This document shows positions 17,505 through 27,260 of a DNA stretch of 53,886 nucleotides, piece after piece. Source of the stretch: Synechococcus sp. PCC 7335 (lineage in GTDB: Bacteria > Cyanobacteriota > Cyanobacteriia > Phormidesmidales > Phormidesmidaceae); assembly GCF_000155595.1 (NCBI RefSeq), contig NZ_DS989904.1, positions 2,043,400 to 2,097,285 on the forward strand, in the 5' to 3' direction. Every line of letters begins with the position of its first letter. Within the stretch, counting starts at the first letter, position 1. Under the pieces are notes generated by a model that saw only the letters and a program-made list of their open reading frames with translations, made no database searches and had not been told where the DNA came from. Made by a program: the position numbers and the translations under genes.

Positions 17505-17747
17505 AACTAGTTTCATAAAGCTATTGCAGGTAGCCTATAAGCGATGTCCTTTTAATTCATGTTCTCTTAATAGAAAGCACCTAATCTCGACGACGAACTC
17601 GGGTAGTCTTAAGAACAAGAAAGCCCATATTATCAGGTTTTCTTTATTCACTCTTCTGTTGGGCATACTTACAGCAAAGCGTTTGTAGATCCTAACTTGT
17701 AGATTCTAAATAGCGTCGGAAACTTCGCAGTGTCCGAAACTTAGTAC

Positions 17748-17852
17748 TATAGCTTTGGTCACTTAGCTTACGGCATAGTTACTGGCTATAACCCTTGTGT
17801 TTCAACAGGCTAAGTGACTCGCAAGGCACGAATGCATCCGCGCCTTGCTATA
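17748..17852 (+). repeat. Dispersed two-hairpin element, copy 1
   Basis: A 105-bp element with TATAGC (17748) and GCTATA (17847-17852) at its ends. Hairpin 1 is CACTTAGC (17760-17767) with GCTAAGTG (17809-17816). Hairpin 2 is GCAAGGC (17821-17827) with GCCTTGC (17842-17848) and carries the loop CGAATGCATCCG. It sits in the 394-bp gap before gmd, which otherwise shows no gene, and is about 90% alike to copy 2 in its first 75 bases. Confidence 0.8.
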
Positions 17853-24090: not shown

Positions 24091-24564
24091 ATGCTCAGTA
24101 CAGTTATTTCCGCGCTAAAGGCTTTGTTCCCGGCCCCTGAAGTTCAAGCTCATTGCGATGGCCCCTGCGGTGTGTACGATCCGTCTTCTGCTCGCATTGC
24201 TGCAGAAGCAGTCGTTTCTATGACAAAGAAGATATTAGACCTAGAGCACCCTGAAGGTGGTGATACTCAAGCCATGGCATCTTACCAAAACACCATGTCT
24301 CGGTTTATCGCTATCAAAGAAGAACAGGCTCAAATTACCAAAGATGAGCTGTTGATTCTATGGACTGACTATTTTAAGCCCGTTCATTTAGAGAAATATC
24401 CTGATCTACATGATACTTTCTGGAAAGCTGCGAAGCTCTGCTCTGCATGCAAAGTGGAAGTTAGCACTCAGCACTGTCAAGAACTCATGGACGCGGTTCA
24501 GAAGATCCATAACATCTTTTGGGAGACTAAGAGCCGTGATGTATCTTGGTATACCGCTAGTTAG
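24091..24564 (+). CDS. sodN: Nickel superoxide dismutase precursor
   Basis: A 157-residue NiSOD precursor. A leader of 20 residues precedes the nickel hook HCDGPCGVYDP; after cleavage the ligands are His1, Cys2 and Cys6 (H21, C22, C26 here). The rest is the four-helix bundle with QNTMSRFIAIKEEQAQITKDEL, LWTDYFKPVHLEKYPDLHD and TFWKAAKLCSACK. The enzyme removes superoxide in the cytosol. The maturation peptidase gene sodX follows 211 bp later, behind a strong terminator, which would make sodN the more abundant transcript. Confidence 0.96.
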   Translation: MLSTVISALKALFPAPEVQAHCDGPCGVYDPSSARIAAEAVVSMTKKILDLEHPEGGDTQAMASYQNTMSRFIAIKEEQAQITKDELLILWTDYFKPVHLEKYPDLHDTFWKAAKLCSACKVEVSTQHCQELMDAVQKIHNIFWETKSRDVSWYTAS

Positions 24565-25616: not shown

Positions 25617-26159
25617 GTCTTTCTACATAGCCTTACCTAGAGACTGTTGTCTTTAGTCCCTTCTTAGCAACAACCGCCCTAGTCCTGGCGATGGTTGAGC
25701 AGGCAAAGAAAGCTAGGCAAATAAGCTTCATACCCTAGCTGTTCAACTTGACGTAAATCAACTTGACGGAAAACAGTACAATTACGACTCGACTGATTGA
25801 GTGTTGGTTGAATTGAGTACTTATCGCTTTGGTCACTTAGCTTACAGCATAGTCATTGGCTACAGCCCCTGTGTTTCAACAGGCTAAGTGACTCGCAATA
25901 TACGAATGCATCCGCACATTGCTATTAGCTAAGCTGCACAGTTGATTCTTTGTAGTCAGCAATCCGTGTTTGGCCAACGCATTTCAAAAGTTGTTGTTGA
26001 GTTCCAAGAGTGAGTCCAAACATACTAACTCTTCACGTTTCACCGCTTCGTTTGGTAGTTTTCTATTTTCTATGGGGTTTATCCCGAAAAAAGAAGGTGT
26101 TCATTCTAGTCTGGATACATACAGCTACGGTAGATTCACCATAGAACCCCTTAGTCTTT
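25617..26159. other. Long intergenic region with hairpin element copy 2
   Basis: A 543-bp region between the GNAT gene and the kinase-like gene. Apart from the hairpin element at 25822-25926 I see no RNA gene or clear promoter. A TTG-started frame at 25970-26218 (82 codons) is open but has no recognisable domain and overlaps the next gene; I do not call it a gene. CAACTTGACG is repeated at 25743 and 25758. Confidence 0.5.
25822..25926 (+). repeat. Dispersed two-hairpin element, copy 2
   Basis: A 105-bp copy very close to copy 1. Its left end has TATCGC instead of TATAGC and its right end GCTATT. Hairpin 1: CACTTAGC (25834-25841) with GCTAAGTG (25883-25890). Hairpin 2: GCAAT (25895-25899) with ATTGC (25918-25922) around CGAATGCATCCG. 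Against copy 1 both arms of hairpin 2 changed (GCAAGGC/GCCTTGC to GCAAT/ATTGC) and pairing of the outer stem is kept. Confidence 0.8.
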
Positions 26160-27260
26160 ATGAAGCGCTACGACATCATTCATCAGACAAGCAGCCAGAT
26201 GATCGGTCACTTGATTAAGCCAAGAAGTCTCAAGACAGAATCGCTTCAGGCAACTGAGCGATCGCTAACAGCGCGACTAAACCAAAAAACATCTTGTTAC
26301 CGCCTAGAAAAATGCCTAAGCCAAGAAGTCGGTAAGAGAACTTTTCTGGCAACAGATATTCATTCAAACTTACAAACGATTGTCAAGCTGCTTTTATATT
26401 ACCCAGACCCCCAAAAGAAGGAGATAGAAGAGACGTTATTACAGTTGCAAGAAGCGGGTTTACAGCCTTATCAGTTACCAGCAACACTTCCCTATATAGA
26501 ATCCTTTGAAGTAGAAACAGCATTAGGGCCAGCATTAGCCTTAGTCAAACCACTGGTCAAACCATACGTTCAGACCACGGAGCAATCTATATCTACAAGA
26601 AAACGCCGCAAAGCTGCCCTGTCCTCGCATCAGGCATTTCCTGTACCACAAACAGCCTATGCAGACTTTAAAGTGAGCGCTGTTTCAGATAGCCTATCTA
26701 TTCGATGTTTAGAGTCTCGCATCTGTACAGGCATCGTTGCTGAGGACGCAGGCGAAAGCTTAAAAAATTGGCTATTGGCGGTTGTCGGTACTGTTACCTT
26801 TGTTGGCGGTGCCGTTGCCATGACTGGCTCTATTGCCATAGGTGTTTTTGTCGCCGTGCTACTTCCGCTTTTGTTTGAGTGCATCATTACTCTAGAGCAC
26901 AAGCAAAGAACAGTACGGAGGCAGGCGATCATTAGACTTAGTCGCAAATCTAGCGGGCGTACCTTCTTGAGCCTCACAACTGCCTTGATGCCGAAGCTGA
27001 ATGGAGTGAGGAAGGAGAATGCACCGCTACTTGAGAGTCAACTTCACTATTCTCGTCTGTCAGTGAAAGCGGTCACAGTCGCCCCTGCTTTTTTCTTCTT
27101 CCTCAACGACTGGAACTTATTGGGTGCCAAGCTAACGTTCACTTTCTATAATCACGATGCCCCTAGCCCCTGCCTTTGTGTGGTTGGCAGCTATCAAGAA
27201 ATTCGCTGGATTCAGCGTCATCTTTTACGGTGGGCAAAGGCAGATAGTCCAAGCGCGTAA
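26160..27260 (+). CDS. Degenerate kinase-like membrane protein, unknown function
   Basis: A 366-residue protein that I cannot name. Residues about 45-125 (CYRLEKCLSQEVGKRTFLAT, TIVKLLLYYPD, LPYIESFEVETALGPALALV) look like the N-lobe of the protein kinases common in cyanobacteria, with a lysine in VKLL but no proper glycine loop. No HRD catalytic loop or DFG motif follows. Instead there is a hydrophobic double segment at about 205-240 (GTVTFVGGAVAMTGSIAIGV and on) and a C-terminal domain of about 120 residues ending in QRHLLRWAKAD. It thus seems to be a kinase-derived, non-catalytic membrane protein. ATG 26199 is an alternative start. Confidence 0.65.
   Translation: MKRYDIIHQTSSQMIGHLIKPRSLKTESLQATERSLTARLNQKTSCYRLEKCLSQEVGKRTFLATDIHSNLQTIVKLLLYYPDPQKKEIEETLLQLQEAGLQPYQLPATLPYIESFEVETALGPALALVKPLVKPYVQTTEQSISTRKRRKAALSSHQAFPVPQTAYADFKVSAVSDSLSIRCLESRICTGIVAEDAGESLKNWLLAVVGTVTFVGGAVAMTGSIAIGVFVAVLLPLLFECIITLEHKQRTVRRQAIIRLSRKSSGRTFLSLTTALMPKLNGVRKENAPLLESQLHYSRLSVKAVTVAPAFFFFLNDWNLLGAKLTFTFYNHDAPSPCLCVVGSYQEIRWIQRHLLRWAKADSPSA

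Follow-up and report, generated by a model that had tools for sequence, protein, structure and literature searches.

The open reading frame at 26160..27260 (+) of the window, by which we mean the whole stretch of 53,886 nucleotides from Synechococcus sp. PCC 7335 analysed here, raises the question of whether half a protein kinase can persist as a protein with a job of its own. It encodes 366 aa, laid out as a kinase N-lobe remnant, a linker and a split tail domain that holds a membrane hairpin, and an orthologue is present in all seven genus genomes. The ATG start is supported by the orthologue of LEGE 11477, where 17 of the 21 first residues are identical; residues 1-21 are conserved and a variable linker (residues 22-45) follows. 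The N-lobe remnant comprises residues 46-134 (26295..26561, +), that is, strands 1-5 up to the hinge. A fast-evolving linker (residues 135-162; 26562..26645, +) occupies the position at which homologous kinases carry their C-lobe. The tail domain starts with PQTAYADFK (first part, residues 163-200; 26646..26759, +), is split by the hairpin (approximately residues 201-247; 26760..26900, +) and ends with its second part (residues 248-366; 26901..27257, +) on the closing motif GSYQEIRWIQRHLLRW. An earlier note on this DNA had described a double membrane segment, and indeed a 19-residue Kyte-Doolittle scan gives two hydrophobic stretches that form one nearly continuous block at ~203-247, where two structure models of low confidence both place two helices. 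A structure prediction from two sequences (the window protein and L033) reached a pLDDT of 33 for the whole protein and of 39 for residues 163-366.

The relation to kinases becomes visible when whole genomes and profiles are searched. In a genome tblastn, residues 44-134 align with kinases at E values down to 1e-11. Matches at E <= 0.01 were found in 28 of 58 genomes (its own included), residues 44-134 recurring against ORFs that are mostly of kinase length, and 22 of the 23 loci recruited in this way (L009-L030, L032) contain an HRD motif. L030 proved to be an unrelated chance match and was removed from the kinase counts; 35 ORFs had been chosen partly by their HRD motif, and the count among them was therefore excluded as evidence. 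When 16 kinase N-lobes (four from this genus) are combined in a profile, the five N-lobe-bearing orthologues are all matched at E values of 6e-19 to 5e-16 (Z set to 5000), the window protein at 5e-16 over profile positions 18-108, which reach from strand 1 as far as the hinge. The N-lobe pattern that the earlier note had seen in the N-terminal part is thus a kinase N-lobe by homology. The beta sheet with the glycine-loop region of a Hanks-type Ser/Thr kinase (PF00069) is recognisable, judged by sequence: the glycine loop holds one Gly (SQEVGKRTFLA), a form near that of homologous kinases, and the beta-3 lysine is present as Lys76, with a counterpart in G002. It is replaced by Asn in G004, Glu in G005 and Asp in G006. 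In the N-lobe-only forms the alpha-C region has either diverged or gone missing, and in the alignment of the window protein the FEREA-like segment of homologous kinases, with the alpha-C glutamate, is not recognisable. As for the catalytic half of PF00069, the 366-aa sequence contains neither HRD nor DFG, as had been noted earlier, nor any other C-lobe motif, and it has no Pfam Pkinase match. We are close to certain that the window gene descends from a protein kinase and is not a look-alike. Going by its homologies, the source is a cyanobacterial Hanks-type Ser/Thr kinase with a kinase domain followed by a split tail domain holding a membrane hairpin.

The seven orthologues, which share the same C-terminal part and are all open frames, have lost different amounts of this kinase. 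The fullest is that of G006 (L043), whose open frame of 593 aa still includes a C-lobe (Pfam Pkinase E 3e-13 across profile positions 47-198 of 263), so that the search for homologues retaining this lobe, which the earlier note had proposed, yields a syntenic one. Its catalytic motifs are gone, with HRD turned into HRA and DFG into NLG besides the Asp in place of the beta-3 Lys. Four species have N-lobe-only forms, namely G000 (the window's genome, 366 aa), G002 (394 aa), G004 (352 aa) and G005 (407 aa, with four undetermined residues), in which the protein is cut just after the hinge and continues with a variable linker and then the tail. The orthologues of G003 (246 aa) and G001 (260 aa) are kinase-free; they have no N-lobe and an alike short N-terminus. 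On the genus tree, which is star-like, neither a single clade of the four N-lobe-only species (p 0.19) nor one of the two kinase-free species (p 0.42) is rejected. Read from these sequences, the genus lineage has lost the catalytic motifs, six of the seven orthologues are without the C-lobe or the whole kinase domain, and the tail is retained. The missing N-lobe in G001 and G003 means that this part is dispensable in part of the genus.

The C-terminal domain leads back to kinases as well. With a profile of 22 kinase tails (some of them near-duplicates), hmmsearch found all seven orthologue tails at E values from 9e-11 to 5e-6, calculated for just these 7 sequences, and on this set size the tail homology to active kinases is put at E 3e-8; hhalign of orthologue tails against kinase tails gave a probability of 94%, and in the reverse search with the orthologue profile only 8 of the 22 kinase tails pass the HMMER inclusion threshold. 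The orthologue profile has exactly one strong copy per genus genome (E <= 1e-74), which holds by construction since the same sequences built the model, and it matches weakly in 9 of 56 other family genomes; five of these nine matches (L051-L054, L056; other genera) share an ORF with an HRD/DFG kinase domain. Class-wide, a combined tail profile that contains the window protein matches 74 places in 52 of 96 genomes (3 of this genus). All 16 long tail-bearing ORFs sampled, hand-chosen from the upper half of that match list, have both HRD and DFG. Only six of the 74 matches lie in open frames <380 aa, two of which belong to this genus; the remaining four are a broken kinase (L115), a fragment (L116), a kinase-free protein (L117) and a 37-aa piece at a contig end (L118). 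L115 (G143:C60) is a kinase of the same family in two frames broken at the tail, with HRD and DFG still present. L117 (G113:C44), of 357 aa, probably has several membrane helices; it carries the same kinase tail domain and seems to be a second case in which this domain escaped from its kinase. By profile homology, the C-terminal domain of the window protein is the tail that ordinary cyanobacterial Ser/Thr kinases carry; the earlier note was right about its size of ~120 residues, and its statement that the domain could not be identified is superseded.

Searches of Pfam, NCBIfam and PDB with the tail domain gave chance-level matches only, among them UbiA, which we rejected as a chance-level match on the membrane helices. 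The domain begins with a P-start and two strands, continues with an optional membrane hairpin and further strands and closes with an E-x-x-W helix, and the window protein has all of these elements. In a 23-row alignment of the 7 orthologues and 16 kinase tails from a list of 20, with L009, L020, L026 and L034 excluded as divergent, only P1, E185 and W188 (domain numbering) are invariant. This alignment omits L002 and L035, which the 22-tail profile took in, and L010, L023, L025, L029, L003 and others are in neither set, although L023 and L029 seem tail-bearing. The hairpin is missing from 4 of the 16 aligned kinase tails (L013, L021, L022, L028) and hence seems to have been inserted into a soluble domain, which it splits. 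A PH-like fold has seven strands and a closing helix arranged as a split barrel. In the tail, the two low-confidence models show two strands, the hairpin, approximately five strands and a helix, an order that fits, and our guess from these models is that the tail may be PH-like. A 2007 survey attributes ‘long unidentified C-terminal domains’ to 107 cyanobacterial ‘cbSTKI-other’ kinases, and it set aside 17 proteins in which catalytic parts are missing (PMC2176072). The kinases with this tail would be that subfamily, a match of names that we infer.

Both retained parts carry a signal of constraint. Between the window protein and its LEGE 11477 orthologue, the N-lobe has a pN/pS of 0.25 (0.14-0.40) and the linkers one of 0.75 (0.53-1.02), the value being 0.24 for residues 243-366 and 0.42 for residues 163-242; the comparison was also computed in a Jukes-Cantor version. 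Four other window genes are more conserved (dN/dS 0.02-0.07), so the remnant protein is to be seen as fast-evolving but constrained. Beyond the LEGE 11477 distance synonymous sites are near saturation, and identity was used instead. For the N-lobe, residues 163-242, residues 243-366 and the linkers, in this order, identity amounts to 48%, 29%, 28% and 21% between G000 and G004, to 41%, 38%, 29% and 8% between G000 and G005 and to 57%, 56%, 45% and 26% between G004 and G005, whereas between G000 and G006 it is 31%, 44%, 33% and 18%. Among the more distant N-lobe-only forms no segment is better conserved than the N-lobe, but against G006 it does not lead. Going by the substitution ratios, it is under purifying selection in the window's species. 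The earlier note had suggested that a kinase might have decayed and been fixed for a new role. The decay is borne out by the N-lobe homology, the C-lobe in G006 and the kinase tail, and the fixation by purifying selection; the new role is presumptive.

The gene order of G006, namely nuclease, nickel SOD, signal-peptidase-like ORF, GNAT, kinase-remnant gene, photolyase-related gene and helicase (where signal peptidase and helicase are presumed labels), is the same as in the window, so the C-lobe-bearing and the N-lobe-only forms share one place. In G001 the upstream genes are retained with other ORFs between them, and the photolyase-related gene lies on another contig. In the locus stretches examined, SOD and GNAT were not found in G003, nor SOD in G005. 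The nickel superoxide dismutase gene of the window (24091-24564; Pfam Sod_Ni, E 1e-50) is found upstream of the remnant gene in the locus stretches examined for 5 of the 7 genomes. Because the GT25-like and photolyase-related genes directly adjoin in the outgroup G011 (L066), the kinase-remnant gene seems to have come to the locus within the genus, or to have been lost elsewhere. A motif-pattern scan within 1.5 kb of the photolyase-related gene, or to the contig end, found no kinase motif at any of 24 other-genus loci (L066-L089), L068 and L069 showing just a VFDFG string and no HRD, so that insertion of the gene in the genus ancestor is probable. The GT25-like glycosyltransferase gene is an open frame beside the remnant gene in G002-G005, lies a few kb off in G001 and was not found in the G006 locus stretch examined. 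In the window it consists of relics at 25685-25813 and 25901-26032 (-), the second with stops, with a repeat of ~104 bp between them. Near the beginning of the window, 953-1486 and 1462-2043 are overlapping ORFs that we take to resemble the two frames of an insertion-sequence transposase.

This repeat is also the hairpin element behind which the gene had been said to lie. The hairpin is a real sequence with 10-nt perfect arms that ends ~235 bp before the start codon, and given its composition there is nothing unusual about its fold (z -1.2). It is a copy (25822-25925) of a ~104-bp interspersed repeat with inverted ends that has at least 23 copies in its own genome, each of at least 78 nt and with 85-93% identity, as counted from the 40 of 60 candidates that were scored; another copy lies at 17743-17851. 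A link between the repeat and the kinase-remnant gene was looked for and not found, and a search for an RNA element, promoter or terminator gave nothing clear of chance. The hairpin is an interspersed repeat that appears unrelated to the kinase remnant.

What might such a protein do? As the remaining kinase piece looks conserved, it probably has a non-enzymatic job, and we propose that the window protein may be a membrane-anchored module that docks without catalysis, perhaps on intact kinases. The protein would sit in the membrane by its hairpin with both ends cytosolic and would act without catalysis. The tail domain would perform the part common to the seven orthologues, be it anchoring, or sensing or binding at the membrane, and the N-lobe sheet would have been retained as a surface for docking, intact kinases being its most plausible partners. 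Contact might be made via the face by which the N-lobes of bacterial kinases dimerise, and would tether or modulate the intact kinases. From what is accessible of the two reports, N-lobe dimerisation activates bacterial kinases (PMC3601408) and a pseudokinase has constraints at its N-lobe dimer interface (PMC12599244), hence an isolated N-lobe could touch intact kinases. Going by this analogy, we consider docking of the N-lobe on kinases possible but doubtful, and it is still less probable, indeed rather unlikely, that the N-lobe sheet is a free-standing selected module, tethered to the membrane, that works in trans upon intact kinases in a non-catalytic way, either as their activator or as a decoy. 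Against docking count the missing N-lobe in two of the seven orthologues and the distribution of active kinases. Co-occurrence with one partner active kinase was not visible among the seven genus genomes; the closest active kinases are found in G001, whose remnant gene has no N-lobe, and none at E <= 1e-3 in G004 and G006. Kinase descent, a selected N-lobe, an anchoring tail and an N-lobe that docks without catalysis form the best explanation as a whole, to which we would give somewhat less than an even chance.

It might be possible that only the tail matters and that the N-lobe is a folded leftover which caps or stabilises the protein and binds nothing. The tail is present in all seven orthologues and the N-lobe in five, and a kinase-free tail protein (L117) exists elsewhere. 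This reading is at odds with N-lobe identities that exceed those of residues 243-366 in the comparisons of G000 with G004 and G005, a degree of conservation that a passive cap would not require; in the comparison with G006 this does not hold. We regard a passive N-lobe as a serious possibility, if one that we rather doubt. A decaying pseudogene whose remainder is debris would agree with the varying amounts of kinase missing across the genus and with the adjoining glycosyltransferase gene, which has truly decayed into two relics around a repeat insertion. Yet all seven orthologues are open frames, the same post-hinge junction is found in four species, and pN/pS is ~0.25 in the N-lobe and residues 243-366 compared with 0.75 in the linkers, so decay of the gene as a whole appears improbable to us.

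Two further explanations concern the kinase piece itself. A cut at the lobe boundary is what a split kinase would have, its N-lobe being completed in trans by a C-lobe made elsewhere. No bare C-lobe is found, though, among the 17 Pkinase matches (15 over the cut-off) of its own genome, which is 95% complete: 14 start at profile position 1 to 17, and of the three that start beyond position 60 one (L102) is an HRD kinase domain with residues before the domain, and the others (L105, L106) presumably are ABC1/UbiB-type kinases, which they resemble. In addition, G004 has Asn and G005 has Glu in place of the beta-3 Lys, which means that the handling of ATP is not conserved, and a split kinase is very improbable. 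A separate family that merely resembles a kinase N-lobe, the second reading of the earlier note, could appeal to the single-sequence searches of Pfam, NCBIfam and PDB, in which the window protein has no kinase match. It has to be given up, however, in view of the N-lobe profile, the syntenic orthologue with a C-lobe and the kinase tail in common, and we regard it as refuted, with hardly any probability left to it.

One small genus holds at one locus a dead form with a C-lobe, an N-lobe-only form and a kinase-free form, and active kin are found elsewhere in the family. With an N-lobe remnant under selection, the question of whether half a kinase can serve as a functional regulator becomes open to test; if the remnant is passive, the locus would be a tidy but modest example of domain loss. 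The tail domain is widespread in cyanobacterial kinases, is without a Pfam model and outlives its kinase. A bacterial N-lobe-only protein is not described among the literature matches listed, which leave most subscription journals outside their scope, and the words pseudokinase and N-lobe are absent from the searched text of a 2025 review on cyanobacterial Ser/Thr phosphorylation (PMC11863333).

Pseudokinases usually retain both lobes. Those of the bacterial Ser/Thr type are generally known to keep the two-lobed fold, which G006 has as far as its sequence tells, whereas the window protein has one lobe. Like the bacterial Ser/Thr pseudokinases in the accessible part of PMC12599244, the window protein is kinase-derived and catalytically dead by sequence, and the G006 orthologue is an example with a C-lobe. 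The cyanobacterial CP1 pseudokinases of the same source, as described there, are without membrane regions and have a link to a COG3899 domain, and the window protein is unlike them. Kinases of the PknB/PknD type dimerise and are activated via the lobe that the window protein retains (PMC3601408, in the part seen), which serves as an analogy for the proposed mechanism only. A close likeness is to the cyanobacterial Hanks-type Ser/Thr kinases that have a long C-terminal domain: the N-lobe type is common to both (GRRTFLA.D, then VVVKLLLF) and the tail domain is the same, 12 of the 16 aligned kinase tails also having an insert of the membrane type, but the window protein is without the C-lobe and every C-lobe motif.
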